Of a stretch of DNA of 64,000 nucleotides, positions 6,366 to 38,227 are shown in pieces. The notes under the pieces were generated by a model. That model was not told where the DNA came from and did not search any database. It saw nothing but the letters and a program-made list of their open reading frames with translations. The stretch is from positions 55,490,001-55,554,000 of the forward strand of contig OX485804.1 of the NCBI GenBank assembly GCA_950295325.1, written 5' to 3'. This stretch comes from Polytrichum commune. Taxonomy: Eukaryota > Streptophyta > Polytrichopsida > Polytrichales > Polytrichaceae. The position numbers and the translations under genes were made by a program. Every line of letters starts with the position of its first letter. Within the stretch, counting starts at the first letter, position 1.

Positions 6366-6624
6366 ATGGGAAAAGACTCTCATATGCATTGAGAGATGCT
6401 CTCTGCCACATGCCTTTGTCATTGGGGAATTTGATTCGTCATGGGGGCATCCTTTGCCATCGCCACAGACTCACGATTTCATGGAACTGGAAGATCATGG
6501 GCAAGCAACTGCCTTGGTCATGTGGGTTAGGTTGGATGTTTATTCTTACCATTAGTGGTTTGGAGCTTGCATGAAATTGGGCATGACGATGTTTTGTTGT
6601 GGGCTTGTTACTTTGGTTACATGA
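6366..6624 (+). pseudogene. LINE ORF2 remnant, continuation after solo LTR
   Basis: With the solo LTR and one ATGGG removed, the LINE frame upstream (..IIYDKMAW) runs on through this block. A later frame reads LCHRHRLTISWNWK, similar to the C-terminal end of this LINE class. It is cut again at 6624 by the next LTR. It has several stops. Confidence 0.5.
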
Positions 6625-7832
6625 TATGAGCCCAAAATGGTTGCTCATATTTGTTTTATGTTTAGAATTTACTTAGAATTGCATTTGAAGTCATTATTGG
6701 AACCTCAAAAAGGATTAAAAAGAGTGAGGCTTGGTGTGGATTTATGTTTTAGGCCTTAGGCTTATTTAGTGTGGTTAATTAAAGGATTAGTGTAATTAGG
6801 GGTTGAAATTTAGAACATAATGGTTGTGGGTTAAAGTAAGGGAAGGGGCCTCGGGGTTTAAGTGTTTGAATTGGGACCTATCGTGTTGGTTTAGGGGGTG
6901 AGGGTTTAGTGGATAGGATGAGGTTCTATTATGTAGGAGAGGGGTAAGGGGTTAAGCTCTCTCGGGTTTTGTGTGTGGTTTTTTTTTTTTTAGTTGAGCA
7001 GGGAGAAGCTCAAGGAGCTCGGAGGTTGCGGCATTGAAAGGCTGCTGGTTTAACTAGGATTCAAGAGGCTGAGCTCGAAGGTTGCGGCATTGAAAGGCTG
7101 TTGGTTTAACTAGGATTCAAGAGGCTGAGCTCGGAGGTTGCGGCATTGAAAGGCTGTTGGTTTAACTAGGATTCAAGAGGCTGAGCTCGGAGGTTGCGAC
7201 ATTGAAAGGTTGCTGGTTTAACTAGGATTCAAGAGGCTGAGCTCGGAGGTTGCGGCATTGAAAGGTTGCTGGTTTAACTAGGATTCAAGAGGCTGAGCTC
7301 GGAGGTTGCGGCATTGAAAGGCTGCTGGTTAACTAGGATTCAAGAGGCTAAGCTCGGAGGTTGCGGTATTGAAAGGCTGCTGGTTTGACTAGGATTCAAG
7401 GTTGGCTAATGGGTTGAGGCCAGTGACGGGTGATGACAGGTGTGACCCCGAACCCACACATCGTAGTTTCTTTAAGTAATAATGGGGACTGGAGTTATAA
7501 AAAGGAGGGGGTTTAGTAGTGCTCACACTACATTATATTATGGCTAGCTACCTAAGCTTAAAATGATGGATTAGTTTAGATCATTAGCTATCCGTGTAAT
7601 TGGGTGTGCACTTGTGTAGGATTTTGATAGGGTGTGTTAAGAGAACAATAATAGAGAAAAGCGTTTGTCAACGCTTGTACTCATGATATGGAATAAATTG
7701 GTGTGACAAAATGGATGTGTGATGTAATGGGGATGAATGATGTTGGAAAGATTAAACTAGGACGAGTATGAATGTGAGCCCCACGCCCTTACCCGGACTA
7801 CGACGCATAAGGGTGGGCAGTTTGGCCTCACA
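6625..7832 (+). mobile_element. Solo LTR D, TGTGAGCCC family
   Basis: A 1208-bp LTR-like segment starting TATGAGCCCAAAATGG and ending CCCGGACTACGACGCATAAG...GGCCTCACA. Flanking pentamers are CATGA (6620-6624) and CATGG (7833-7837), an imperfect duplication. Shared interior text with LTR A includes 'aaaaagagtga', 'gtttgaattgggacc' and a G-rich step. It holds a 56-bp minisatellite. Confidence 0.7.
7017..7400 (+). repeat. 56-bp minisatellite, about 6.8 copies
   Basis: Near-identical head-to-tail units that include 'ggaggttgcggcattgaaag' and 'ggtttaactaggattcaaga'. One unit is one base short. The array lies within solo LTR D and is absent from LTR A and LTR B, so it expanded in this copy or subfamily. 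Confidence 0.9.
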
Positions 7833-7837
7833 CATGG

Positions 7838-8095
7838 CGGCTTGGGGGTTGTCCTTGGTGGGTAGCTTGGTGGGTTGTCCTTGGGTGGGGAGAACACACC
7901 ACCGGAACCTCCATGGTGGGAAATTTGCTTGTCAACTTCTTTCCACCTCATAGCTGTCATTGGATTTCATGTGGCATGACAACCTTCCAATCGATGAGGC
8001 ACATTACCCTGGCATTGATTGGAATACAAGACCCAAAGATTAAATCTAATGTGAGACCACAATATCATCTCATATTGTGACACTTTCAACCAAAC
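7838..8095. other. Intervening sequence, no clear feature
   Basis: Short stretch between two LTR insertions. It may be more of the disrupted LINE 3' end, but no motif supports that. Confidence 0.3.
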
Positions 8096-8629
8096 CAACC
8101 TGTGAGGCCAAATCCACCACCCTTAAGCGTCCTAGTCCGGGTGATGACTTTGAGAATCACATTATCTATTACAACATTGAACCATATGCAAGGAATTTTT
8201 CATGTTCGAATGAACATGTATTGTCTTACTCATTGTACTTTATTAATGTTGGCCTCTTGGCTGATGCTAGAGTTGGCCTTCTCAAGAGTCCAACCCGCGG
8301 ATTTAGCCACACATGCCCTTAAGGACATTCCCCTCGCTCGTTTAATCTTCACTCCCTTTTCCTTGTCATTGCAAGGATCTCCCACATTCTCCATTAATAA
8401 TGCAAGTGCGTTATTTGACCAAGAGATTCAAGTGTTGAAAAACACTTTTCTTCACGGATCAACACACTCATACAAACCCACACATGCCACAACTAGTCTA
8501 ATAGGTCTAACTACTTAGCCACCACTAAATGGCCTAATGTAATCTAGTTTTTTATATGCTAACACCCATTAATTGGGCCTAGCCTTGATAACCCCTAGGC
8601 AGCCTAATGGTTTGCACTAATCACCTCAG

Positions 8630-9045
8630 CAGTTTGTGCCATTAGCCTTCGGCTGGGCCCTTCCAGCAGATGTGCCATTAGCCTTCGGCTCCCCTTCCAG
8701 CAGCTGTGCCATTAGCCTTCGGCTGGGCCTCCAACAGTCTGTGCCATTAGCCTTCGGCTGGCCCTCCAGCAGCTGCTGATCTCACTACTAAGCTTAGGCA
8801 GTATGTGCCATTAGCCTTCGGCTCCCCTTCCAGCAGCTGTGCCACTAGCCTTCGGCTAGGCCTCCAACAGTCTGTGCCATTAGCCTTCGGCTGGGCCCTT
8901 CCAGCAGCTACTGATCTCACTACTAAGCTTAGGCAGTATGTACCATTAGCCTTCGGCTCCCCTTCCAGCAATCTGTGCCATTAGCCTTCGGCTGGGCCCT
9001 TCCAGCAGCTACTGATCTCACTACTAAGCTTCGGCAGTATGTCAC
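8630..9045 (-). repeat. Compound minisatellite
   Basis: A short unit built on 'gtgccattagccttcggct' plus 'ccttccagcag' is repeated about ten times. A longer unit containing 'ctgatctcactactaagctt' is interleaved three times (near 8775, 8910 and 9010), giving a higher-order pattern. It lies inside segment E. The open frame on the reverse strand here is only the repeat read as codons. Confidence 0.85.
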
Positions 9046-9106
9046 TAAATAACCATTAACACACCCTTATCTACTAACCACACATCTTCTAATTTCTACT
9101 TCTTCC

Positions 9107-9142
9107 TTTTTTTTTTTTTTTTTTTTTTCTTTTTTTTTTCTT
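9107..9142 (+). repeat. Poly-T tract
   Basis: Nearly uninterrupted T run of over 30 bases with few C, just beyond the minisatellite inside segment E. Confidence 0.9.
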
Positions 9143-12100
9143 TCTTCTCTCCTTAACTAAGGAACTAACCTACCTGTGAACCCTTTGAGTGGTCCACCAC
9201 TCTGCGGGATCACTTTTAGTTAGAATGTTAGCATTAAAAGTTAGAATTGATAGGGAATTTAGGAAAAATTAGTTCATTTAGCATTTAGCCTAGAAGAAGG
9301 AAGGTCAAAATGAAACTAAGTAGTGCTAGAAGATAGCAAAGTAGAAAAAATGTGCTAGCTAGTAAAAACAACTAGCTAAGCAAATATTAGTAGATGCTAG
9401 CTATTAAGCAAATGTTAGTAAATGCTAGCTAAGCAAGTGTTAGTTTATTAGTAGTGTGAGGCACACAAGACTATTAGAGGTGGTTTAGGTAAGAAGATAA
9501 AATCGGCGTGAAGAATTTTGAAGACAAAAAAGAAAGAGAGCAAGGGGGATACTTGCCCACTTGCCCCCTTGCCAACTCGATGGCGGAAAAATTAGAAAGA
9601 TTTCTAAAGGTTTTTTGTCGGAGCCACCTCGGCGAGAGGGTGGCAACCTCAACCGGGAAAACCCCCGAGCCAAAATTTCGGGAAAGGGTTTGAAAAATGG
9701 ATCCGGTGGAGGAGGGGTCCAACCCTTTTGTGAGAGGGTTTAAAAACCCCTCCTTCCACCTTGTAGCTCTCGCTCTTTCTCTAGTTTTTGGGCGAAGCCC
9801 TGCTTCAATGTAGTTAGGAAAAAATCCTTTAGCATGTATTCTCAATGGTCTAGAAGAAAGGCTTGAGAACCTCCTCTACTCTCTCTCTCCTAGTTAGGTT
9901 GTGTGTTTATTAACACACCAACAAAATTATTCCTTCTTTTGTAGAGGTAGGTTGGATGGTAGAGTTTTGAGTAGAGGCATTATAGACCTCATCTGCCAAT
10001 GCCCTGAAGGCTTAGTTCAAAAGCTAGAACAAGATACTTATTATTTTTCTCTTAGAGAGATTTCATATAGCTATCCATAGCCGTTTCCCATTTGTGATTT
10101 GGTTGAGATGACAATTAGTTATGGATTTTCAAAGATGGAGTAGAAAAACTGGGTGGTCTTGTGGGTAGCGGCTGCTGGATCAGACCTGCGAGCCCAATAG
10201 GAATTTTAATTCCAAGAAATTATATTTTTCCCAAGTAGAACTTTTGTGTAGCTTTCCAAAATGGCTTAGAACATTTGATTTGAGCATGATTTGAATTAGA
10301 TATGAATTGTGCAAGATGGGACACATAGTTTGAGAACTTTTGGTTGACTGCTGCATTACAGAGGACCTGCTGGGTTCACTTCGGCTTACCTTTCTAATCA
10401 CATATTTTTATCAAATACATCTTTTTAATATCTCTCCAGGGTCATATAGAACGTTTGATTTGACTAAGATTTGAATTAGATATGAATTGTTGAAGGCGAG
10501 ATACATAGTTTAAGCCTTCTTGATTGACTGCTGTGTTACAAGGAGTCCGCTGAATTTCTATTAGCTTAACCTGCTGATGTCATAATTTTTCTAGTTAGAG
10601 CTTGTTCATAGCTTTCCAATGGTATAAGGAAAGCCTAGATCCAAGTAGTAAGGAATGTGCTATGAATTTTTGAAGTTAGAAGGTAGATAGGTGAGTTGGA
10701 AGGGTCGGTTGAATCGACCTCACACTTCCAACCCTCATAACTTTTGCATTTCTTATCCGATTAGAGTGATTTTTAGATCATTGGAAAGATAATTTGGTGC
10801 ACTAAGTATAAATATTATGCTTAGGATTAAATTACAGGGCAGAATAACACTTTATATTTTAATTGTTAACTAAGGTACGCTTACTACCAAACTAGTTACA
10901 AAGAAGGAGGCAAGGTCGACGCTCGGAAAGTGGAGCAAGGAAGGAGGTAGCGGCTCGGCCTACATCAAGCCCAAATCAACCGAGGAAAATCGAGGTAAAT
11001 TAACTAACCTTAAGCCTTCCATTTAGGATTGGAGGGAGCACGGCTAAGGTACGCATCTCTAAACCCACTCACCTATCTCGTAAGGTCAAGTGGCTTGACC
11101 ACTTGACCGCCAAGGGAGTACCCAATTCCATTGTTTTCGGGGCCCTTGGTATGTTTTGTGGTAGTAGCTTCATTTATTAGCAAGTTTCGTGTGTGGTAAG
11201 TCGGATTAATCACCGACACGACCACTCTGAATGTTGTTGGTGGAAAGGTGGGGTTAATGACCCGCGAATCCACTATTATGTTGTTGGCCCCATAGATTGG
11301 GAGTAATGGCCCAATTTATGAAGATTGCGCAACAGGTTGAACCTACAGGTCGCCCGTCACCCTGGTCCCATTGAGTTGCATTTCGTGGTCTATCCAGTGT
11401 AAACACATTTAACAATCAAAACATACAAAATAAATCGTAAACCCTTGTTGGCAAGAGACCCGAGGTAAGGGGTGATGCCTAATATGTTAATGTAGTAAGT
11501 TAGGACGTGCAAACAAAAGTAAGTAATTAAGAAGGAATTTGTATGAAGGGTGGGACTTAGGCCAAGTTCCCCCGCTTAGAAAACTAAATAGAACTAAATA
11601 AAGAAATAGGAAGAATTGAATGGTCCATAAAATTGTCGTTATTCCGTTCGTTGAGTTAGGGTGGTATGAGTCACACCCGGTTGGGTGTATCAGAACCATC
11701 CCAATTCACAAATTAGGATTGCCTTGGTTTCAAGGCTGGTGCGTCTGCGCGTAGAATAGGTTGTAGGTTAAGGTTAGAACTAGATATGAAATTGGTTAGT
11801 GGAGTTTAAAGCCACACTAGTAAAAAACTAAGGCCTAACCTCCGGAGGTACTACGACGCATATTTAATCTCCCTTAAAAATCTAACTACTCACGTTATAC
11901 ACCTATCATCCGGGTTCGGCTTGGGCGCCTGCAAATGCAGGCCACCTTCACCGAAGGGCTTGTGTGATACTTTTAGGCTCCCTCGAAAGGGGGTGGCCCA
12001 AAAGTACCACACTACCATACTAACTTCACTAACAACCATCTAATCTTCCTAGGTAATCCCAAGTTCTAAAAGTGCACTCACTTGGGAGGCATTTAGAGAG

Positions 12101-12623
12101 AGAGCTTAACTAATTGTCTTCACTACACTAATCACCCACACACGTAGCTCAAGCTCTTAAGAGCTTGCTCCCTTGAGAGCACTTGATGGAGAGAGTCGCA
12201 AATGAGAGAAAGAACACCTTAAGTAGCAAAGAGGGAGAGAGGGAGAGAGAGGTGAGGATAGGGGGGGAGGATTAGCACCTCCAATCACAATCCCTTAACC
12301 TTCACCTTCAAAGTAGGGACTAATCCCCTTCCACCAAGCTTCCTTCTTCCTAAACTAACAAAGTGGGTCCAAAAGTGGGCATTTAACCCGTGGACCTCAC
12401 CTTGCCTCACCTTACCCCCTACTCACATAATCAAGGCATCCTCTTATTGAAATCAAACCTTGAAATAACTACACAACACATTCTAATGCCTAAACTTAAA
12501 TCCACACCACACTTCACTCTTTTTATGTTTTGTGAATAATCATAACACATCAAAGTCAAACTAAAATTGGTTTCGAAGAGTTAATCACCACATGTGGGCA
12601 CCATTTTGGGCTCACACAACCTT

Positions 12624-25152: not shown

Positions 25153-25669
25153 TAATGGAAGGTGTACCATTGGCATCTAATTATGATGCCAAATTAGAGC
25201 AATATTGTCGTTTTGAAATGGCAAATTGCGGAAGAACTTCATCCTCAATGAGTTTTTGCTACATTGGCTCAAGAATTTGGGACAAAAAAGGCCGGTAAGA
25301 CCTTTTCTCAGGTTTTCTTTGAAGGTACTCCAACCTTTGAGAACCAAAAGATTACAAAGGTGTATTAGCACACTACAAGGGTTTGTTGCGACAACTCCGA
25401 GTGATGATGCTGGGGGCAAGGATGTTGCCTCTTCGTCAAGTTGACGATCGAAGACCGTGCCGGCACTAGAGGTGGATCCTTTGAAGAAGAGGGACACCAC
25501 AAAGTTTGATGATTGACCATTGGAGTTGGGTCCTCATCTTATAGGTGCCGAAGCACGAAGGGTACGGACATTATTTGTTCGTATTGAAGTTGTTTTGCCT
25601 TTAGCCTCCACAATCTTGAGGGCTATAAAGGAAACCTATTTGGATACAGCTAGAGGACGATCATCCCAT
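25153..25669 (+). pseudogene. Gypsy gag/protease region, heavily deleted
   Basis: Begins MEGVPLASNYDAKLEQYCRF in the first frame after the LTR. It then breaks into three frames with stops over about 500 bp. A full gag plus protease would need well over 1 kb, so most of it is deleted. No zinc knuckle or aspartic protease motif is visible. Confidence 0.4.
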
Positions 25670-26628
25670 CTTTAGGCATTCATACAAGTTAAGTCTATCA
25701 CAAAGGATTGGTGTCCAAGCTCGTTGTGACGAATTATTGGACGCAAGTTTAGTGAAATTATCTAATGGGGAGTACGCTTGTGCAGCGGTCATGCCTTCAA
25801 AGAAGGATATTTTTGGTAAATGGATGGAGAAGAGAATGTGTGGGAACTATCGTCCAGTCAACAAGAAGACAAAGTTGGACCATTATTTAATGCCAACTCC
25901 AGAGGAATTGTTTGACACAGAAGGTACGCTCGAATTTTTAGCACATTAGACTTGAGATCCGGCTATCACCAGTTGCCTCTTTGGCTCCAAGATCGAGTCA
26001 AAACAACATTTTGGGAGATTGATCGCGACGGAAATGATCAACTCTATCATTGGAAGTTTCTTCTTTTTGGTCTCAAGAATGCACCGGCTGAGTTCCAGGG
26101 GGTAATGGACCAAGTGCTAGTAGGGTTGCCCTTTGCTCGGTGCTATATTGATGATGTTATCATCTTTAGCAATACACCACAAGAGCATGTGAGGCACTTG
26201 CAAGCAGTTTTTGAACGGTTATGTAAGTGGGGCTTACGTTTACACCATGGAAAATGCAAATTCTTCCATGACCGCCTACCTTATCTAGGACATATGATTG
26301 TACCGGGAGGACTTGGGGTACAACAAGCAAAGGTGGATGCTTTGCAAAAGATCCCGGCACCTAACAACGTTCCACAACTTTGTGTTTTCCTCAGATTGGC
26401 AAACTATTACCATCGATTTGTCAAGGACTTCAACTTGATTGCCAAACCTCTTACTATGTTTACAGGCAAGGACCAAGATTGGACTTGGGTCTGCGAGCAA
26501 TGTCATTCCTTTGAGACATTGAAGCAAATGTTGGGATCTGCTCCAGTGCTTCGACATCCCAACGTTACAAAAGTTTTCCAACTCCATACAGATTGGAGTG
26601 CATTGGGTTTGGGAGCGGTCTTGACATA
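25670..26628 (+). pseudogene. Gypsy pol: reverse transcriptase domain
   Basis: Two in-phase blocks with a break at about 25949. The first has AVMPSKKDIFGKW, MCGNYRPVNKKTK and LMPTPEELFD. The second has LRSGYHQLPL, WKFLLFGLKNAPAEFQ, the catalytic YIDD (26144-26155), LPYLGHMIVPGGLG, LANYYHRFVKDF and the connection block FQLHTDWSALGLGAVLT. This is a Ty3/gypsy (Metaviridae-type) reverse transcriptase. A stop follows LGAVLT. The catalytic aspartates are kept, but the reading frame is not intact. Confidence 0.93.
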
Positions 26629-27370
26629 AAATGATGATGTAGGACGAGAGTATGTTATCGCATATGCTTCACGCAATAATAACAAAGCGAAGTCCAATTA
26701 TTCATCCTATGAGGAAGAGGCATTGGCTACTATTTGGGCCATCTCTCATTTTAGACCATATTTATATGGTCAAAAATTCCCTTTGGTGACCGATCATCAA
26801 CCATTAAAATGGCTTATGGAGTCGGATAAGCTCACTGGTAAGCTTGCTAGATGGGCATTGTTACTCCAAGAATATGATTTTGAGATTGTTCATAAAGTGG
26901 GAACCTCTAACTTGGATGCAAACGGACTCTCTCGCAATCCAAGTCCATCAGAAGAGGATTTAACTGGGGCTAGATGGCACGAAGATTGTGATCGAAAGGC
27001 GGTTCCAAGTTGGCATGCTTTGGTATATTTGGCCTTGATGGTTAATTCAACTTCTGAGGAACCAGATCAAGGTGCACATGAAGAATCTAACAAGTCCCAA
27101 GTGATTGGTGATATCTGGGAAGACCTTCCAATCTTGCACAAATTACAGCATGGGACATATCCTACATCCGTCTCGGCTGTGGAGCGAGATAGGATTTCTC
27201 ACCCAATAACACGATTCCATTGGGATAATGGATTGTTATTTCGATTGTGCCCTGATGGAGCTAGGCGTATAGTTCCAAGGCCTAACCAACATGTTTCCTT
27301 AGTACGACAAGTACATGAGGAGTTGGGTCACTTTGGGGTGCGTAAAACACATTCGATATTAAGCAACTGA
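26629..27370 (+). pseudogene. Gypsy pol: RNase H and integrase zinc domain
   Basis: RNase H blocks: YASRNNNKAKSNYSSYEEEA, then FRPYLYGQKFPLVTDHQPLK and LARWALLLQEYDFEIVHKVG, ending SNLDANGLSRNPSP. The integrase N-terminal zinc domain follows, with H-x4-H in HEELGHFGVRKTHS; its C-x2-C partner (CEVC) lies beyond the stop at 27370. It is open for 215 codons with no frameshift. Confidence 0.92.
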
Positions 27371-28100
27371 TATTGGTGGATTGGCATGTACCAGCATGTT
27401 GCTACCTATGTTGGTAGGTGTGAGGTATGTGGTTGGATTTGGTCAAGTTTCAACACCTTGTCACGCCAATTACAACCTTTACCCATTATGGGTTTAGGAT
27501 ATTGATGGAGTTTGGATTTTGTGGGACCACTCACCCCTACACCATGTGGGGCAAAATATGTTTTGGTGATGGTAGAACATATCAACAAGTGGATTGAACT
27601 TATTGTTTTATCCTAAAACTCATTTGAGTTGGCAGCCGCTGCATTTTTCGATCATGTTTTAGCACGATTTGGTGCACCTGCTAAGGTGTTAACTAATCAA
27701 GGAAGGAAGTTTCTTGGTTCCTTTGAGGAATTGTGTACCAAGGCCATCGTACTACACCACGAGATCATCTAGAGTCAGATGGTTTGGACGAATGTATTGT
27801 TCAAACGATCAAACGGGGTTTGTGCAAGTATGGCCTACTTCGTGGCAACCATCATGATTGGGACCTTATGCTTCCATGGATAGCCATGGGTTACCAATTT
27901 AGTTGGCTTCATATAGCCCTTACCCATTGTTGTATGGAAGGGAACCTATGTTGCCAAGTTCTATTAAAAAAAACTAAATCCACCTATAGATTTGGATGAC
28001 CTAGAAATTAGGGCTCGATGTCTATATGAGTGAGCTGAGTTCTTCAAACAAATCATGCATATGGCCATGGAAAATTTGTCTATTGCCCAACATCGTGATA
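27371..28100 (+). pseudogene. Gypsy pol: integrase core, mutated
   Basis: Continues YWWIGMYQHVATYVGRCEVC, then LDFVGPLTP (first catalytic D kept). The second catalytic site reads LTNQGRKFLGSFEE, where integrases have D at the N position. After a frameshift comes DGLDECIVQTIKRGLCKYG, with the glutamate kept, then DWDLMLPWIAMGY. There are at least three in-frame stops and one frameshift, so no active integrase can be made from this copy. Confidence 0.88.
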
Positions 28101-28438
28101 CATTGTGATATGCTTGTATTTGTAGCAGTGCTTATCGACCTCAATTGCGATGTTTCTCGAAGGGAGATTATGTCTACCTACAACGTGAGGCGTCCACAAC
28201 TTTGGATGTCAAAGCAGGGCGTACAATCCTTCGTGTGAAGGATATTATTCCAAGTGGCATTTTGCTACTTGAGGGGAAGGATGGACAAGAATGTCGAGAA
28301 CATTCTAAGAATTGCGCTCCTTGTCACTTTCCCATTGAGGGGACCTTGCATCCCGAATGGGCGGTGGCGCCTGAAGGTCTTCCATGTTTTATTTGTGGTG
28401 AGAAGAAAGGTGCAGCAACCATGTTCTTGTGTGACACA
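28101..28438 (+). pseudogene. Gypsy pol C-terminus with first half of a PHD finger
   Basis: Open frame reads KGDYVYLQREASTTLDVKAG, LLLEGKDGQECREHSKNCAP and EGTLHPEWAVAPEG, then CFICGEKKGAATMFLCDT. The cysteine spacing C-x2-C-x11-C-x2-(C) starts a PHD finger (C4HC3). The frame is cut after ..CDT by the transposon at 28439. The other half lies at 37666. PHD fingers read histone tails, so the element may use chromatin marks to choose targets (inference). Confidence 0.85.
28429..28438. repeat. 10-bp target duplication of MULE-like element, left
   Basis: GTGTGACACA, repeated exactly at 37656-37665. Nine to eleven base pairs is the MULE range. Confidence 0.93.
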
Positions 28439-28495
28439 GGGGAGTGCTATCTTATGAGCGGTGAGCGATGAGCGGTAACTTATGAGCAGTGAGGA
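28439..28495 (+). repeat. Left terminal inverted repeat and TGAGC subterminal repeats
   Basis: About 22 of the first 28 bases match the complement of the right end. Beyond that, five spaced TGAGCRR units continue. Such clusters commonly bind the transposase. Confidence 0.85.
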
Positions 28496-28621
28496 AGATG
28501 AAAATTTTGGTAATAGGGCCACCAATATCCTATAACCGTGGAATTGTGGCCTTAAAAATGATGATTTTAGGGTTTAGTAATAAGAGGGTTGAGAAGGATA
28601 AACAACATGAAGTCCAAAAAT

Positions 28622-31600
28622 TTATTCATCAGTAGTAGCACTAGACATGAAACTATCTTTTGCCTCATCATCTATATATATTCGAGCACCTTTGCATTGC
28701 GAATAGATTTTGGAACTATAGCAAGATTCTTCATTTGGATCCGAATCTTCGAGATTCAACATTGCAATTGCAACATTCTCGGCATATGATGGGAGATGCG
28801 GGCTACGGCTTGGACTTCGTAGGAATTGTCTATGTGCCCAAAACGGGAGACATGTCCTCTTTCCAATCGTATTCCTGAAATCAAATCGATGAAACATGTA
28901 AATAATGTGAAGAAATAAAAATGAACCAATGAATTGAATGAAACGAATGAATTGAATAAAAATTTATTGTATTAAAACTTACTCACACTCAAATTCAAGC
29001 ATCTCCTCATCCGAGAGGTCATCATCTTCTTTTATGAGATCTTGTATATTCTCCTTAGATGACCCCTCTTTCAAAACGTTTTCCAAAAGCGGTTTCAATA
29101 TGTGCTCAAACATGTCATTATCACCCTCAAATGCAAGAAGATGTCTGCCACATGCGTGTGTTGCTAGGATAGAAGCTCCAGTGGAACATGTCAAATCAAC
29201 AACGCGTCCATTCGATCGTGTAAACAATTCAATAAGATCTTGAAAAAAAAACGCGGCGATTTTTTATATGGCCCCCTCCAAGGTCTTCCCGATTTTTGAA
29301 GAAGCATGTTTTTTTCATCCACAAAATTGAAAAGCAAGTTTTTGCTTTTCAATCTAGTGCAAAAAAAAGTGGAGTTTGGTTGTCTCGTGGATTTTGTGGT
29401 AGTAAAATCCCTTACCAAGACATGAGCCATAAATGCCGGAGTCTACAAAAACATGTAAATTGTGTTAAAACTATATACAATACAAATAACACCAAAATAA
29501 TTAAATAGAAACAATTGTGATGTGTTATACTTACGGTGTAGGTTGGAGACTCCGGATCCTTGAACACCATGTACGAATTGAGGCAAATAAAAGTCCTAAG
29601 AACTTTCATGTTGCCGTTGTGTAAGGTTGAATTCAAAACCTTCTTGGTTTGCATATCGATAGCAGAAAATACTATGAGGATGCCATCATCAGACAAGATG
29701 GACTTGCACAAGGACATTGTTGCAACCATCCAGTTCTTGTCATATTTATTCCAAAGAGGAATTTCAGCAGGTCTATTGGAGAGGTTGAAGTTAAGACCGT
29801 CGGGAAATTGGAGAAAAACCAGGTCAACGACAAAGGGAGTCGGACTTCCCATGACATGAAATTCGCGATTGTCATTGAACTGAAATACCACAACATATCA
29901 CCATATAAGACACAAAATAAAACCCAAATGAAAGTAAGAACATTAGAGAAAATACCAAAACAATAATACTTACGTTTTCAATAAATTCCCGCCATTGGAT
30001 CCACTCAGGAGGGCCTACATCCACCCCTTCAGACTTGTTCTTGACAGCAGTAGATCGAGCAAACGAGAGCGTGAAAAAGTTTTTCAGTATGAATAATTCT
30101 TTTCTCAAAATATCCGTTGGCGCACAATGAATAGCGTCATAGGTGCTGGAGTAATGAAATTCCAATACATCGCACCCAGACTTTGAACTTTCGCCTCCAA
30201 GTGGATTCTTATCCAAATCATTGGAAAGAACAAGCAATTCTTCATGTTGTGAAATTTCCGATTAACCTTGTATTTTGGTTTCAGGAACATGTTTCCTCTT
30301 ACGACGTTTTGTCTCTTTTGGTTCGGGTTCTCTAAGTTTAAGCTGCACAATTTGTGCTTGCAAAATTGCAGTATCACGAGGATCCACATTTTTAGCATAA
30401 TTTATCTGACGGATTGTCTTCTCACTTGACGGACATGCATCCTTAGGACAATCAAGATACCAACTACAATCCTCATAGTGTGGGAGCGACCAATCCGAAC
30501 AAATGTCAGTAGTGAACATGCATGAATCTCCTGCACCAGTGTCACGCCAATTTGGGAAAAAACGAGGTTCCCCTATAACGCATTTATGTGGAATCAAAAC
30601 ATATCGAAAATACCTACACACAAAAATATTGTAAGTCAAATATTCCATGACAATTTGACAAATGGAATAAAAAAATCAAAAAAATAATAAGATTAAGTTG
30701 TACCTGTATAATACACGTTTCATAGCAAGATCAATATTAGGTTGCTCATCCCAACCGTTGTGTTTTTTTACTTTTCCGCTTTGGAATTCACGATTAATAT
30801 TGAATTGAAAGCCGCAAACTTCCAGGTTTGGATATACTTCGAGAGAGTAGGCACATCTGCAGGCAATTGAAGAGGAGATGAAAGAATACTTTGAAGCTCT
30901 TCGATAGCTTTTTTTTCCAACTGTGCCCAATATGTAGACTTTGATAACCAATCATCAAGTGCAGAATCAGAGAGGGGCGATTTCGGGAAATGCAATGCAT
31001 CTTTGTCAAATCTATTGCCATTCCACAGCTTGAGCCATCCAACTTTGACTTCTGCATCCACATTACTGACAGCAACACGATGGAGTTTCTCTTGTAGCAT
31101 TTCAAGCACCGAAAATGAACCCCAATGGTGTTTAACTTCTTCAAGGAAAGCAGAGGTAAGGTTGATGTCGGCAATCGCTAGTGGTTTCGTAAAACTAGAA
31201 GATAACATTGCACGTTTTTTGTTGACAGCTGCGGACATTGCTTTTGAAACTCCGTCTGATGTCCGTTCAAGAGGATGAGTTTCATTGTACTTGTTGAGAG
31301 CAATATCGCTAGCCTCAGCAAGTTCTTGCTGAAAAATCAAACAAAAGTCAATATTTATAAGTACATATAGATGTAATGTAAAATGAAGATGAATAAACAT
31401 AAGGCACATATTAGCAATGGTAGAAGAACTTACATGTACATGTAATCCAAAAAAATTGGTCGTGTAAAAAAATACCAAGTTTCGACAGACTTCTCCTCAC
31501 ATCATTTATAATTCTTTCGATCCAGTTGCTTTCTGAAGCAAGTCAAAGGCATGGTGCCAATACTTTGCATCCGATATAAAGTATGCACCAAATTGGTGGA

Positions 31601-32439
31601 TACGTGAGAATTTTCGGTTGACCTGAAAAAAACATTAAATTGATTAGATTCATGATGATATAATTTGGGAAACAAAATATAAACTAAAAATAAGTGTAAA
31701 AAAATAGGTAAGAACATTACTTGTTGATGTCATGCATAGCAGTCAACAAATTTGGAATGTCGTCAGGCTCGGGCGCCAAAATGATAGAATCCACAAAGAC
31801 ATGACGTTCATAATCTTCGGTATATACGCGGTCAATATAATTTTTCCAAGCAAGAAATCTGTGATTTCCATCCCATATAAAAAACATCTTGTTCTTGTAT
31901 GACGTCAATGACAAATCTGTATCCAATTGAAATTTAAACAGGGCATTGGCTTGAGCCCAATTTGAGCTCCAAGATTCGCGAACCTTATCATCCACGAATT
32001 GAAAGTTTCCCTTATAATCGGAGGCCGATATATAAAACACACGGTCACCATCACGATAACCATTGAAAAAACCAGCCTCCAATTTAGTAATGTCACCCTT
32101 CAAAGCAGGACGCACAATCGGCATAGGAACCATGCGACATAAGGGTACACGCAAGCGAGCATTAGGTCCAACACGGATTGAAGAAATTGTGGAAGTGGAA
32201 TTGATCTTTTGTTTGTTCGTAAGCTCCCACACTTTCTCTTGATAAGTTTTATTGTCACCATCATTATCTTATACCGAGTCAAAATCATCGAGAGATTCAT
32301 TTATTTTATTCTTATTCTTATTATGAAGATTTGACGATATATTCTGATGATGATGAACTTGTTCAGATGGACGATCTTGAATTGAATGCATTGTGGAATC
32401 ATCAGCAGTAGAAATAGGAGTTGTTATCTCCAAATCCAT
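28622..32439 (-). pseudogene. ParB-like / beta-class amino-methyltransferase-like fusion gene
   Basis: Seven exons with GT-AG introns are inferred: 32439-31721, 31622-31434, 31328-30704, 30613-29974, 29879-29535, 29442-28983, 28874-28622. Exon 1 holds a ParB-like region with DGNHRFLAW (about 31858-31872), where ParB-type nucleases carry G-x-HR. The middle has a Cys-rich stretch and a basic KRRKRKH (possible nuclear signal). Exons 5-6 look like a permuted amino-methyltransferase: VDLVFLQFPDG (degenerate motif IV position), KSILSDDGILIVFSA, then SGRPWRGP and, near the C-terminus, VVDLTCSTGASILATHACGR (AdoMet motif I, about 29170-29205) followed by LLAFEGD. Motif IV before motif I is the beta-class order. 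Stops at about 32270 and 30262, a lost G at the exon 1 donor and T-run or similar frameshifts in exons 2, 3 and 6 make it a pseudogene. It could be N6-adenine or N4-cytosine specific; that cannot be told. Confidence 0.75.
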
Positions 32440-32658
32440 TGATTGGTCGTAAAACAAATGAAATAAGTTTCATAAATATTTCAAAACCAATAGCAACACA
32501 TTAGCAATAACATTACAAAAACAACAGCAATAGCAACAACAATAAAAACAGAATACCACGAACAAAGGGAAGAATGACAAAAATTATTCTGGACACCGCC
32601 ATTTGCACCTTTAAATACTGTATGATTAGGGTGGCCGCTCAATCCAAAACTACAAGGG

Positions 32659-32688
32659 CAGACCCTGTGCGTTAACGCACAGGGTCTG
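32659..32688. promoter_or_regulatory. Perfect 30-bp palindrome
   Basis: Half-site CAGACCCTGTGCGTT is followed at once by its exact complement AACGCACAGGGTCTG, centred on GTTAAC. One arm plus centre (AGACCCTGTGCGTTAAC) recurs at 33145-33161. It is a candidate dimer-binding operator for one of the element's own proteins, or could form a cruciform. Confidence 0.85.
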
Positions 32689-32724
32689 TGTGTCCAACTA
32701 TAGGTCTACCAAAGTTGGGCGCGA

Positions 32725-32925
32725 GGTTTGGGTAGAACGACCCAAACTGTCCACACGGTTTCGATCGAGCGACCCAAACCGCCTACAGCCAGTTTGGGTC
32801 GAATGACCCAAACTTTCTCCGCGTGGTTTGGGTCGAGCGTTCCAAACCATGCTTACAATGTGAGTCGAACGACCCAAACTAGGCAGACAGTTTGGGTCGA
32901 ACGACCGAAACTGTCCGCAATTTAC
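32725..32925. repeat. Array of spaced palindromes (TTTGGGTCG-NN-CGACCCAAA)
   Basis: Six imperfect units of 20-22 bp, each a TTTGGGTCG arm facing CGACCCAAA across 2 bp, with spacers of about 11 bp, period about 32-33 bp. Three helical turns per period would put all sites on one face of the DNA. A related array sits at 35058-35212 inside the transposase gene. Confidence 0.88.
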
Positions 32926-33144
32926 GCTTGATTATGCGCAATTACCCAGTCATCACGAAAGTGCAAACAAACCTTGTACTGCACATGTAGCTGAGAGAGC
33001 TTGAAGCGACGAGCTCAGGTCCGACAGATGAGAGAAAAAAGACTGAATGCTTTGGGGGTGTGGCAATTTATAGTACTCGTCCCTACAGCTATATTTAGCG
33101 TGGCTCTTCGTGGCCCCATATAGCCACTATAAAGTTGCCAGCGT

Positions 33145-33161
33145 AGACCCTGTGCGTTAAC
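33145..33161 (+). promoter_or_regulatory. Half copy of the 30-bp palindrome
   Basis: AGACCCTGTGCGTTAAC, identical to the left arm and centre of 32659-32688, lying on the other side of the shared promoter region close to the rightward gene. Confidence 0.75.
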
Positions 33162-34891
33162 ATTTGTGCATCTGTTGATCTTTCAAACACATCACCATTT
33201 CCATTTAGAAGTGTTCATTCTACTCCTTCTCAACTTCCTATACATGTAGCCAAATCCCCTTGCGGTCTTATGTACAAGAAGGTGGTTCCCCAAATCTCAC
33301 CTTCTCAACGTCCTCCACTACACCCTTCCCCTTCATCTACAGGGTTGACTATGGTTGATGCCTTGAAGCTGACAAAGTCAAAAAAAAGATCAAAGTCCGA
33401 TCTTGAATCCATTGATTTTGACAGTATAGATGTTCGTGAAGTCAAATACTTACCATCTTCTTTTAATGATGATGTTTTGTTTCTCTTGCCTCCTGTGGCA
33501 TTCAAAGCTCCAAGTACGTATGGTCGCTCAATGGACGGCATGGACAAGATGTGCGACGGTCACCCTTGGTGCACCACCAAAACCACGAATATCCAAAATG
33601 ACTTTGGATTGTCCTTCCAGCGCTCTACTTGTGCTGGTCATCTCCAATGTCATAATGACTACTGTGATTACATGAATCGCAATGGGGGCCTCCGGAACAA
33701 CACTGAGTGGGCCGGTTCAACTCCTATCCCATTTGCTGTGGGTATTGGAACCCTACTAAGTCCACTGTCGAGTGTAAGGTATGTCGTTCCACACCTGTGT
33801 GCATTGCTTTGTGTAATGCTCGAATCATATACATCCACTCCACATCCGTTGGAATGTCCAGGGCTTGCATTCATCTTGGTGTACATGATCACCCTGTGGC
33901 CAATGGCACATGCCGTGAATCATTAGACATGGCATACCAATGTGTTGCAAATGAAGTATTGAAAACACCAACAGCAAAAAATTCAGCCATAGTTATGGCG
34001 GCGAGCAAACAATTCTTGGCCGATTACCTTCTCAAATCTCCCGCAAATGTCGAAGGCCATCATTTGGTTGGTTCATCCCTAGATGTCGTCATGGACAAAT
34101 TCAGCACTCTTACGTCTCCAAATTGTCGTAACTTTGTATCTGGATCAAAGCATTTTTGCGTAGTGGAATGGGAACTATGGATAGTATTATGGCGCTCAAA
34201 GACCACTCTGCTTTCAAATTCGTCTATGGTAGTCGGTTCCCAGGGCAGTCAAAGGACAAAGTGTTTGTTTTTAAGATGTCTGTAGACCTTCCAGGTAGTG
34301 GTGTGGAGCTTGTGAAGAGGATGCAAGTCGGTGGGGATATGGAGAATTCATGGATTATATTTGACCATGTCAAACGTTTGAAGGACTGGACGACCATGGC
34401 TTGTCATGTGTACGATAGTCGATACTGTAAAGTGTTGACTATTGCGTGTTGTAACATGCAATTTGAAGATGATGCAGCACAAATTCTCTTTTGGGAAAAT
34501 TTGAATGTTGTTATGGTAGAAAATGGTGTATCAAACGTAAACTTCAAAGGGTTTATGGCTGATAGTGCTCAAGCTAATTGGAATGCGGTGAGGGCGATTT
34601 ACGGGGATGGTGATCCAAGTCTACCCATGATTGCACGTGAGCGTACATGTCTTTTCCATTGGACCGCAAGCTTGGATAAGGTGACCCAAAAGTATATCAA
34701 ACCATCTTTGCAATTTCAACACAAACAAATATGCAAGGATTACAAAGACGCGAAAACAATGGACGACGCTGAGACCAAGTACCATGTGATTCGTTCTTGG
34801 TGGTTGTCATCTGGAGCTGCCTCCGAAGAAGGCATCCTTGGCCTTTCATAGTGGTTGGGATTTTGGCACTTTCGTTACAGACAATGGGATG

Positions 34892-35445
34892 GCCATATGC
34901 TACTTGTAAGTACATATCAAACTTCATTACTCAATGTAATATATCTTATGTTTTTCTTATCTTTGTCTTTGTGTGTTGTTCATAGGATATGATAATAGAA
35001 GAGCGTGCGGGAATGCCAACATGCAACCTTGCAGAGACTGTACACAACAAACAACAAACAATTTGGGTCGTTCGACCCAAATCTTGTAGGCAGTTTGGGT
35101 CGTTCGACCCAAACGTGGCAGCCATTTTGGGTTGAACGACCCAAACCTTATAGGCAGTTTGGGTCGTTCGACTCAAACGTGGCAGCTATTTTGGGTCGAA
35201 CGACCCAAACCTAGATATATAATCTATCTTATGTTTGTTTTATCCTTGTATTTGTATGTTGTTCATATGCTAATTGTAAGTACATATCAAACTTCATTAT
35301 TCACTGTCATTCACTATCTTGCCACTGATATATAATATATCTTATGTTTTTCTTATTCTTGTATTTGTGTGTTGTTCATAGGATATGACAATAGAAGAGC
35401 GTGCAGAAATGCCAACATGCAACCTTGCAGAGACTGTACACAACA
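34892..35445 (+). repeat. Tandem duplication of transposase intron and exon 2 start
   Basis: The block 'catatgctactt|gtaagtacatatc' through the intron to 'gagactgtacacaacaaa' (34892-35052) recurs at 35264-35445 with small changes. Both copies keep donor GTAAGT and an acceptor ending 'gttcatag'. Between them lies the second palindrome array. Only the second copy leads into a complete exon 2, so splicing may skip the first. Confidence 0.85.
35058..35212. repeat. Second array of TTTGGGTCG palindromes
   Basis: Five units, mostly TTTGGGTCGTTCGACCCAAA or the AA-centred form, separated by about 11-13 bp. Better conserved than the promoter array. It sits between the duplicated intron-exon blocks of the transposase gene. 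Confidence 0.9.
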
Positions 35446-36687
35446 AATGGCTCCAACAGTCCGGCAACAAGATGATTTGTTTATATGAAGCTACAGTGGA
35501 CGACATGATCCGTGCCTTCATGCAAATTGCAAATTACCGGACATGGTTGAAAGGGGGGTCTGATGGTAAAGGTCCTGATTTGGCATCCTTGAAACTCAAA
35601 GCGGCTGCCAGGTGTGGAGATCCAAAAATGTTGGCCGATGCCATGAAGTCTTATCCAGGGGCAGAAGACGTCAAGACTAGAGATTGTGCATTGGAAGGTT
35701 CAGAGCTCTTTGGTTCCACCAAACGCAAACTCAACCTACCACCAGGTGCTGATTGTGACTCTCATCGACCCGACAAAGTGAACTATTCCATTCCTCGTCC
35801 CAACACCCGAGCAACTCGTCAACGCATAGAAGAATCGTTGAGTTCTGCAATTCGTGGTGTGGCTCATACTACATCCGTGTTAAAGACAAATTGTCTTGCT
35901 TCCAAGTGGCACATTGCAAGATTACCACCCAACTCAGCCAAACGATGTTGGGCACTGCAGGCCATCACAGGGATTATGTGCAATGCCAAAGTCGGGACTG
36001 GGAAACATGGCACACCTGCTCCAACATACAAAGGGCTCAGGAAGGAATTTCGCTCTCCCAACAATGTGAAGTATGAATTTTGGTTTTGCCCTGATGACAT
36101 CAAACGTTGTGTGAATGGCAGTAAGAAGAAATATGTGTTGGACTGGCCTATAGTACCCAACACGTGGCCGGTAAAGATAGGTACCAATCTATCGCGAGAG
36201 GAGGTTTTGGCACTTGAAGATGCTGGATTTCAACTACAGCAGAGGGAGGCATTGTCCCCTCGTCGTAGGCTTTCAAAAATCGCAACTCTCCCCATCCCTC
36301 GCTCGCATTTTTCTATGCCACCAAACCCGGACGCCCACCCTACATTCAGGTTTGGGAAGACAGTGCGTTGTAATCCAACAGCACCGCTAGCGGATCACAA
36401 AAACAAATGGGAGAGCGCCGGACTCATGGAGGGTTACTATGTGGTTGGGGTCACTGCCATTCCATATCCGGGCTTTGGAGTGATAATCAACATTGTCTCC
36501 AAGCATGATATCACATATCATGTTACAATTGGCAACATCCCGCATTGCACATGTCCGGATTTCACAAAAATGTCCTCTCATGCATTGGGAAACAAAGGAA
36601 AATGGGTGTATTGTAAACATCTTTATTATGTGTTTAGATTTTTGTGCAAAGTGGATTACGAGAGTGACAAGTTCATTCATACACCTA

Positions 36688-37440
36688 CATATACCTATAA
36701 CGAGGTCATGCAACTACTTGAACTTGCTGGTATTATAGAGTGTGAGTAGTATTGCAAATGGTCTATTAAGTACCATATATTTGAATGTCAAAATATGACA
36801 TGTTTTGGTTTGGATTTTTATAATAAAAATCAGCAATGGGCTGGAAGTATTCCAAATGATTCAGTAACTTCATTTCTATTTAGACTACGACCCAACTGTG
36901 AGCGGTTTGATTGATTGACATGGATAAATAATAACAAGTTTCTAAAAATAAAAAATAATTGAGAAGATTCTACGCACATCCGCGTAGTAACGTCTTCTTG
37001 GTATCCGCCTATAGATTATTCCTGCTTTATCACTAGCTCAATTTGGGATAGCACCAGTCAATGTAACCAACCGGATTCGAACCCGGGTTGATACAGACCT
37101 AATACTAGTCTCTTACACAACTCGCATCCACAGGCGGATGTCTCAAAACCTAGTAGTTACCTACATATTGACTATTTCTAATATCTAATTTCCTTTCATT
37201 TGTAGATTCTGGGCCTTAATTCAACCCGTGAGCAGTTTGAGTGGCTCACAATTATGGCACCTACATGTACGTATAATGAGGTTATGCACCTACTTGAATT
37301 TGCTGGTGTTGTGGAATGTGAGTAGTTGTGCAAGTATTGGTTGTAACTACATGTATAAGGATGTCAATAAATGACATGTATTGGTTTGGATTATTATAAT
37401 AAAAATCAGCAATGAATTGAAAGTGTTTTAAATGATCCAT
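36688..37440 (+). repeat. Duplicated 3' end of the transposase gene
   Basis: The last 60 coding bases plus 3' sequence (36688-36870, 'acctacatatacctataacg' to 'aaaaatcagcaatgggctgg') recur at 37258-37440 ('acctacatgtacgtataatg' to 'aaaaatcagcaatgaattga'). The second copy ends with its own ECE-stop. A tRNA-like segment lies between the copies. Confidence 0.8.
36955..37175 (-). mobile_element. Possible tRNA-derived SINE
   Basis: On the reverse strand a perfect RNA polymerase III B box, GGTTCGAATCC (within 37073-37090), is preceded about 40 bases upstream by 'gatgcgagttgtgtaagaga', which resembles a degenerate A box or D arm. The following body ends in an A/T-rich tail. No cloverleaf with paired acceptor arms can be drawn, so it is not a tRNA gene. 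Clear target duplications were not found. Confidence 0.5.
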
Positions 37441-37554
37441 GGAAATAGGATCCTTTCACTTGTGCTTCATTTAAAATATTGGCAATTTACAATTGAAAAT
37501 ATGCAATTAATTTATCAAAATTTTGGTTGTGTATCCTAAACCCGTGTGTCTTTA

Positions 37555-37655
37555 CTAAATTTGGAATCATTGCTCATATGTTACTGCTCATTGCTCATGT
37601 GATACTACTCACCGCTCACCGCTCACTGCTCATCGCTCATAACATAGCTTCCCTC
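37555..37655 (-). repeat. Right terminal inverted repeat and TGAGC subterminal repeats
   Basis: Reverse complement starts GAGGGAAGCTATGTTATGAG and continues with about seven TGAGCRR units, more than at the left end. Confidence 0.85.
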
Positions 37656-37665
37656 GTGTGACACA
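37656..37665. repeat. 10-bp target duplication of MULE-like element, right
   Basis: GTGTGACACA, identical to 28429-28438. Confidence 0.93.
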
Positions 37666-37770
37666 TGCCAACAAGGCTAGCATATGGCATGCTTAAATCC
37701 GCCCTTGACTTCACTACCTTCAGGTGATTGGATTTGCCCTCAATGTCAAAACTCCTTGGAACATGCTTCA
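37666..37770 (+). pseudogene. Gypsy pol: second half of the PHD finger
   Basis: Reads CQQG-stop-HMACLNPPLTSLPSGDW then ICPQC. Joined to the part before 28439 it completes the C4HC3 pattern: C-x2-C, C-x2-C, H-x2-C, C-x2-C. The stop (TAG at about 37678) stands where PHD fingers of this type have W, one base from TGG. An unrecognised tail continues downstream. Confidence 0.88.
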
Positions 37771-38227
37771 TCTTCGGACAAGGGCTGATTATTTCTAGTA
37801 TGGATATTCATTATTGTTATGACGACAACATTGTCATTTTGGTGACTAGGCGCCAAATACACGGCAAGACACAATTTGATGGGTGGATTGCGAAAAGATT
37901 CGACAACAAAATCCATCCAAGGCGACTAAGGATGGGGCATTACATTAGTATCCAGCCTACAAATCTTGTTGCGATGCTTTTATCAAAGTTATTCTAATGC
38001 TCGTCGGCCGACCCTTGACGTCAACAAAGGATGTGAAGAAATTTTGAGCTTCATCTTTGTTGTGGCAATTGAACCAACTACATTAATTTGTGTAGGCCTA
38101 GTTGATAGACATGGGTGTATTTCTCAACTAAGGGGGGGGGGGGGGGAATTGAGAATGTATTAATAACACATTTGCTCTTGTATTATTACATGTATTTTTA
38201 GGTATGTTTTTTGCACGATGTGTATTT
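37771..38227 (+). other. Probable gypsy 3' tail, unrecognised
   Basis: Short frames continue (for example PTLDVNKGCEEILSFIF near 38010) but match nothing I know. A run of about 16 G starts near 38131. No polypurine tract or 3' LTR could be identified. Confidence 0.35.

Follow-up and report, generated by a model that had tools for sequence, protein, structure and literature searches.

A MULE-like transposon family of the moss Polytrichum commune with a methyltransferase-fold, possibly ParB-like accessory gene and arrays of candidate palindromic binding sites

Accessory genes of transposons and the Polytrichum element

The closest described counterpart of the gene studied here belongs to the Ectocarpus transposon Sola1-1_Ec32, whose accessory gene encodes a ParB-like and N4/N6 methyltransferase protein of 1104 amino acids (aa) and lies opposite to the transposase; green and red algal transposons were cited for similar proteins, and it was suggested that such proteins bind the transposon that carries them and modify it (PMC12477816). 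ParB-methyltransferase fusions are also frequent in phages (PMC12704722), and the VANC motifs of the Arabidopsis VANDAL Mutator-like elements (MULEs) are arrayed in tandem, both within introns and between genes (PMC5735166). A survey of MULEs gives target-site duplications (TSDs) of 8-11 bp, SWIM motifs and, in several groups, second antisense open reading frames, and the word "methyltransferase" is absent from its main text as consulted (PMC6446971). Here we analyzed a stretch of 64,000 nucleotides from the moss Polytrichum commune (contig OX485804.1, positions 55,490,001 to 55,554,000; hereafter the window), in which a MULE-like element carries, divergently from its transposase, a second gene for a possibly ParB-like protein with an amino-methyltransferase fold, together with two arrays of a 20-bp palindrome. 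The explanation that we favour, at somewhat better than an even chance, is that the gene encodes a sequence-specific DNA-binding accessory protein of the transposon with cognate sites, comparable to VANC.

A reading of the letters alone (the sequence-only reading) had drawn attention to the gene and knew of no description of such a pair in a plant MULE. A plant MULE with a ParB-methyltransferase gene was indeed not found in the literature searched, but the gene type itself has been published for the brown-algal transposon; as far as that literature shows, the paired site arrays are what is new here. Moreover, the Ectocarpus element is a Sola-1 giant of 21.5 kb and not a MULE, its gene is likened to ours by description and not by sequence, and its account, in the parts of the article at hand, mentions neither palindromic arrays nor a selection test (PMC12477816).

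The limits of the element were defined from its terminal inverted repeats (TIRs) and TSD (Table 1). When the flanks (28109-28438 and 37666-37800) were joined over one duplication, they gave CFICGEKKGAATMFLCDTCQQG, a stop, and HMACLNPPLTSLPSGDWICPQC, and this product is a PHD finger (Pfam PF00628, 3.7e-13, with X set at the stop). The TSD pair and the PHD finger restored by the joined flanks therefore show that a gypsy-type retroelement was the insertion target and that the limits of the element are exact. The PHD finger is a chromatin-reader-type domain, located near the C-terminus of the interrupted gypsy pol.

Genome searches covered a 407.8-Mb assembly of 64 contigs, the large ones (C1-C7) measuring 42-78 Mb. 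The methyltransferase part of the window copy has at least 202 matches, a lower bound, since scoring covered 142 of the 1547 first-look candidates; one copy can yield two matches. Six full copies, 11.6-12.3 kb long and falling into two subfamilies (L034/35/36 and L037/38/39), were compared, and each contains the second gene, the transposase and both palindrome arrays between a left and a right end. Relative to them, the window copy is without approximately 2.5 kb between the first array (A) and the transposase. Among the 30 loci that scored best, full copies included, 28 show the left terminus and two (L015 and L020) do not. As the six full copies share their termini, the claim of a transposon-borne gene beside a MULE-like transposase held, and a host gene within a nested insertion was rejected.

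The element was assigned to the MULEs, as MULE-like, by its TSD length, its termini, a CxCx..CxH SWIM-like motif and inspection of the sequence by eye. The TSD is 10 bp long in the window and in five of the six full copies (raw strings of 10-13 letters, trimmed to the part outside the termini), within the 8-11 bp of MULEs, and TIRs are present. TSD length, SWIM-like motif and antisense second gene are all shared with surveyed MULE groups (PMC6446971).

The second gene and its product

The seven-exon gene with GT-AG introns that had been read from the letters, bearing DGNHRF, VVDLTCSTGAS and CGRHLLAFEGD, was recovered: in the window, GT donors follow exons 1-6 and AG acceptors precede exons 2-6, while the exon 7 acceptor is CAG in copy L037 (corresponding exon start 28874 in the window). 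DGNHRF lies at 31855-31872 on the minus strand, and VVDLTCSTGAS is followed by CGRHLLAFEGD. The C-terminal KSP..FF..LI element of that reading is uninterrupted in the six full copies, but in the window it is reached only across a frame break. The window gene is broken, a point that the sequence-only reading did not make: the first of its stops falls at codon 57, and the frame is broken elsewhere as well. Exons 1-6 are all present in the six full copies; in L034 they are open over 992 aa, and the other five copies, as the window, have stops or frame breaks.

Colinearity with a protein of 1147 aa from Ceratodon purpureus (M758_1G295400, here P0001) extends over most of the gene, the main tblastn pieces falling in order from residue 218 to 1125, with the motif IV piece alone reaching just E 0.11. 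In a set of 5.8 billion proteins, residues 84-280 of the conceptual window protein had a single match, again P0001, which is 42% identical across 76% of this ParB-like query, and the full-length conceptual protein had no match at E<=10; both queries carried the exon-2 stretch in the wrong frame. P0001 residues 228-420 retrieved from the same set only P0001 itself, the relatives known being those of this genome and Ceratodon.

To measure selection, ratios of non-synonymous to synonymous substitution rates (dN/dS) were obtained by the Nei-Gojobori method. In the nine pairs between the two subfamilies, dN/dS of the second gene was 0.13-0.18 (e.g., 116.5 synonymous versus 66.5 non-synonymous changes between L034 and L039), and therefore the protein was maintained. 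These values, well below 1, and the at least 202 genome matches also rule out a chance gene model. By parts, in four between-subfamily pairs, dN/dS was 0.08-0.14 in the ParB-like part, 0.12-0.17 in the middle and 0.18-0.30 in the N-terminal tail. In the methyltransferase part it was 0.27-0.35, based on few changes (dS 0.04 versus 0.42-0.48 in the ParB-like part), and this low dS suggests exchange between the subfamilies.

Purifying selection also bears on the possibility that the gene is a captured, Pack-MULE-like passenger of no use to the element. MULEs often carry gene fragments, and the gene is broken in five of the six full copies and in the window, in agreement with such an origin. Nevertheless, the presence of exons 1-6 in all six copies, the selection measured on them, and a diverged family with palindrome arrays of its own (described below) disfavour a passenger gene, which we regard as very improbable.

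The beta-class amino-methyltransferase fold proposed for the C-terminal half is supported by several comparisons. With Pfam PF01555, the window pieces scored 16 bits (E 0.012), below the cut-off of 26.7 bits, and P0001 scored 30.4 bits, above it; PHROG methyltransferase matches were obtained at 5.7e-5 and 9.4e-4 for the window pieces and at 5.6e-6 for the Ceratodon protein. In addition, hhalign aligned the motif I region with a ParB-methyltransferase protein encoded on contig C12 (L001; probability 84%, E 7e-6). Searches of solved structures gave sub-threshold matches only, the best being DpnA-type adenine methyltransferases (E 0.053, motif I region of P0001). The order of the motifs is that of beta-class enzymes.

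Motif I was matched in all 30 loci, in 27 of them exactly as DLTCSTGAS and otherwise as a one-letter variant; it aligns with FAGSGAT of the L001 protein (hhalign), and its form is non-canonical with respect to the FxGxG-like motif I. Motif IV was likewise matched in 30 of 30 loci (25 with exactly DLVFLQFPDG, five with near variants having QFPN, QFSD or DLIF), and one further match among these loci is off-frame. The canonical motif IV is (D/N/S)PP(Y/F/W), and this catalytic tetrapeptide was not found at motif IV in the window or in any of the 30 loci, where a QFPD-like one stands instead. Ceratodon P0001, otherwise a colinear homologue, differs in having kept DTPF (DLIIIDTPFD), and two loci of the diverged family read DLILADLPEG (L057) and DLILADIPEG (L058).

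With a non-canonical catalytic tetrapeptide, base modification by methylation is therefore doubtful; base modification was one of the two roles that the sequence-only reading had put forward. The domain may still bind S-adenosylmethionine, and in this family it is more likely regulatory or degenerate than an efficient writer of N6-methyladenine or N4-methylcytosine. An active self-methylation, in which the protein binds the arrays and writes one of these bases on the transposon as an epigenetic self-mark, would be in line with the methyltransferase fold, with motif I in all 30 loci, with DTPF in the moss homologue and with the proposal made for the Ectocarpus gene (PMC12477816). Set against the QFPD-like motif of the 30 loci and the window, and the DLPE or DIPE of the two diverged loci, it seems improbable to us.

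As to the N-terminal half, a G/D-x-x-R box with the conserved Arg is present, and DGNHR is invariant across five aligned sequences; in the diverged family the box reads DGNHRRQAW (L056 and L057) or DGNHRRQTW (L058). The box was thus found as claimed, but no ParB match was obtained for the gene product in Pfam (PF02195, E<=10), PHROGs or NCBIfam, which counts against our interpretation. An hhalign comparison of this part with ParB was non-significant (probability 0.2%), although it placed DGNHRFFAW on the corresponding ParB box, and AlphaFold2 models of the region were of low confidence (mean predicted local distance difference test scores of 38.5 and 42.7). The box, its conservation and alignment place, and the published algal architecture hint weakly at a ParB-like half. 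Overall, the second gene is best read as encoding approximately 1000 aa or more, in which a long middle region separates the ParB-like box near the N-terminus from a beta-class amino-methyltransferase fold at the C-terminus. The order of ParB first and methyltransferase second, as well as an alignable motif I region, is shared with phage and bacterial ParB-N6_N4 fusions (PMC12704722). The L001 fusion differs from the product in its 443 aa, its DPPY and FAGSG motifs and its clear ParB profile matches. This fusion is one of the phage- or bacterial-type ParB genes on the small contigs C12 and C23 (L001, 1468-2799; L002), and both contigs are probably bacterial contamination of the assembly.

Palindrome arrays, related families and mapped features

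The six full copies and the window each hold two arrays of a 20-bp palindrome, TTTGGGTCG-NN-CGACCCAAA, in a 9-2-9 arrangement, and the two sites of the arrays, next to the second gene and within the transposase intron, are common to all of them. Searching the window for TTTGGGTCG-WW-CGACCCAAA with up to three mismatches gave 11 sites, all of them within the element, against 0.02 expected, and the full copies (13 kb each) gave 13, 20, 24, 19, 18 and 20 matches. In L035, 15 of the 20 lie inside the element and five past its right terminus. The spacing between neighbouring palindromes is exactly 32 bp in 87 of 99 cases, with the five outer L035 sites counted. These five, at L035 (with L043), a copy without TSD, are 40 bp apart, at 12152-12312 from the element start. 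Genome-wide, 2763 exact sites were found, and none with the reversed control. Among the sites listed, the first ones (C1 up to 3.5 Mb), ten clusters were distinguished: seven belong by sequence to this first family, to a related element or to a second repeat family (L038 with L044, L046-L052 and L055), and three (C1 475-478 kb, 3440 kb and 3490-3494 kb) were placed by nearness to a first-family match only. A 118-bp direct repeat (34934-35051 and 35330-35447) flanks the intron array (B), which suggests that this array arose by segmental duplication.

The 20-bp palindrome is probably a docking site of the second-gene product, and what hints most strongly at this product as the reader of the sites is a third family (L056-L058), in which protein and site appear to co-vary. 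This family is clearly homologous to the first, with 37-44% identity to P0001 in the ParB-like part, and the first-family palindrome was not found in its three loci (8-9 kb each). They hold instead another 9-2-9 palindrome, GTGTCTCGG-NN-CCGAGACAC, with 16, 12 and 19 sites (up to three mismatches) upstream of and within the gene, and that palindrome was not found in the window, the six first-family copies or three second-family loci. This co-variation is drawn from two protein families, the diverged one represented by three loci.

In the second repeat family, loci L050-L052 showed no tblastn similarity to the first-family gene or transposase at E 0.01. The box of its gene is DGQHS in L050 and L051 and DGQYN in L052; the gene had a ParB-like PHROG match in L051 only (0.052) and no Pfam match, and in hhalign neither ParB nor the L001 methyltransferase nor the first family aligned significantly with this repeat family. 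The family also has a downstream frame of 498 aa and a NIF-phosphatase-like frame (PF03031, 1.8e-7), and the large opposite-strand frames beside one copy (L053-L054) had no relevant Pfam match.

The position of the arrays could also speak for a transposition co-factor with no link to silencing, whose binding would unite the element ends or the transposase, or would repress the transposase. The models for such a role are mudrB and the proteins that bind subterminal repeats of CACTA elements. Arrays in the divergent promoter region and the transposase intron of all six copies would fit autoregulation, but their distances to the left and right termini, approximately 4.3 kb and 2.3 kb, are unlike those of subterminal repeats, and we consider a co-factor of this kind unlikely.

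The transposase of L037 has two open frames, of 742 aa (element 6954-9179) and 455 aa (9555-10919), and the intron between them holds array B; among the six copies, the second frame is stop-free in five and the first in two. Pfam SWIM (PF04434) was sub-threshold (E 0.039 and 0.06), and no MULE transposase domain came up in Pfam at E values of up to 10. For four pairs between the subfamilies, dN/dS was 0.07-0.14 for the second exon and 0.54-0.84 for the first, so that the first part appears to evolve faster or to decay. Moreover, a charged-residue-rich frame of 106 aa on the minus strand, conserved in L037 (element 6129-6446), L034 and L038 and deleted in the window, is a possible third gene of the full-length element; the family would thus comprise two-gene, perhaps three-gene, MULE-like transposons. 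Elsewhere in the window, a tandem array at 7015-7400 consists of 6.9 copies of a 56-bp unit (96% match).

Table 1. Window coordinates of the element, its genes and arrays, and its insertion target
Feature	Position	Strand	Basis or remark
MULE-like element, internally deleted copy, 9.2 kb	28439..37655	.	TIR and TSD; comparison with six copies
Left 10-bp TSD, GTGTGACACA	28429..28438	.	2 plus-strand occurrences only in window
Right 10-bp TSD, GTGTGACACA	37656..37665	.	perfect match to left one
Left TIR, start GGGGAGTGCTATCTTATGAGCGG	28439..28493	+	inverted-repeat and TSD analysis
Right TIR, end ATAGCTTCCCTC	37587..37655	-	inverted-repeat and TSD analysis
Second gene, seven exons, divergent from transposase	28622-32439	-	exon model, copy comparison
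Exon 1, acidic/basic N-terminus and ParB-like region, contains stop in window copy	31721..32439	-	
Exon 2 (STENSHVSTNLVHTLYRM), reading frame broken in window copy	31434..31622	-	
Exon 3, middle region	30704..31328	-	
Exon 4	29974..30613	-	
Exon 5, methyltransferase-like region of motif IV (DLVFLQFPDG, 29796-29825)	29535..29879	-	
Exon 6, motif I, methyltransferase-like (VVDLTCSTGAS, 29171-29203)	28983..29442	-	
Exon 7, C-terminal tail	28622..28874	-	
Palindrome array A (TTTGGGTCGWWCGACCCAAA, <=3 mismatches), 6 sites with a spacing of 32-34 bp	32727..32910	.	between divergent genes
Palindrome array B, 5 sites with a spacing of exactly 32 bp	35062..35209	.	intron between two large transposase frames
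MULE-like transposase, broken in window copy	33147..36749	+	motif reading, copy comparison
MADSAQANW within DDE-like part of transposase	34555-34581	+	read by eye
SWIM-like CTCPDF of transposase	36546-36563	+	read by eye
Ty3/gypsy pol with C-terminal PHD finger, insertion target	25629..28438, resuming 37666	+	PF17917 1.2e-27

Possible function and meaning

The favoured explanation, an accessory protein with its own sites, follows the VANC example in that a MULE accessory gene is accompanied by tandem target motifs, intergenic and intronic, that vary by family; VANC motifs are nevertheless short and in one orientation, unlike the 20-bp palindromes, and the likeness drawn here is one of arrangement (PMC5735166). 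In such a mechanism, the second-gene protein would bind the palindromes as a dimer and would spread or form clusters across both arrays, the one in the promoter region common to the two genes and the one in the intron of the transposase. It could thereby maintain expression of the element or protect it from silencing by the host, a role much like that of VANC at its tandem motifs.

Besides the negative ParB profile searches, several observations weigh against this explanation. L035, one of the six full copies, is without a TSD. Pairing the window with L034/35/36 raises dN/dS to 0.23-0.25, and within subfamilies, window pairs included, it is 0.46-0.93, most copies being in decay, as would be expected after insertion. 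The second repeat family (L050-L052 and L055) bears the first family's palindrome in and around a gene, so that some other protein, for instance the transposase or a host factor, could be the reader of the arrays. Furthermore, third-family sites are approximately 160-490 bp apart within arrays, versus 32 bp in the first family, those of L058 are mostly imperfect palindromes, and transposon membership is established for the first family, not for the third.

Going further than an accessory protein with cognate sites, we tentatively propose, while judging it rather less than probable, a eukaryotic self-recognition resembling parABS: a ParB-like, methyltransferase-fold protein and parS-like 9-2-9 palindromes would co-diverge between element families, several transposon types of one genome would share or exchange arrays, and each family would mark and de-silence only its own DNA. 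With regard to the suggestion made for the algal proteins (PMC12477816), the advance is that candidate sites have been identified and differ between families, that selection has been measured, and that the catalytic motif is non-canonical. The algal suggestion thus becomes testable with one protein, one 20-bp word and a specificity control from a relative family.

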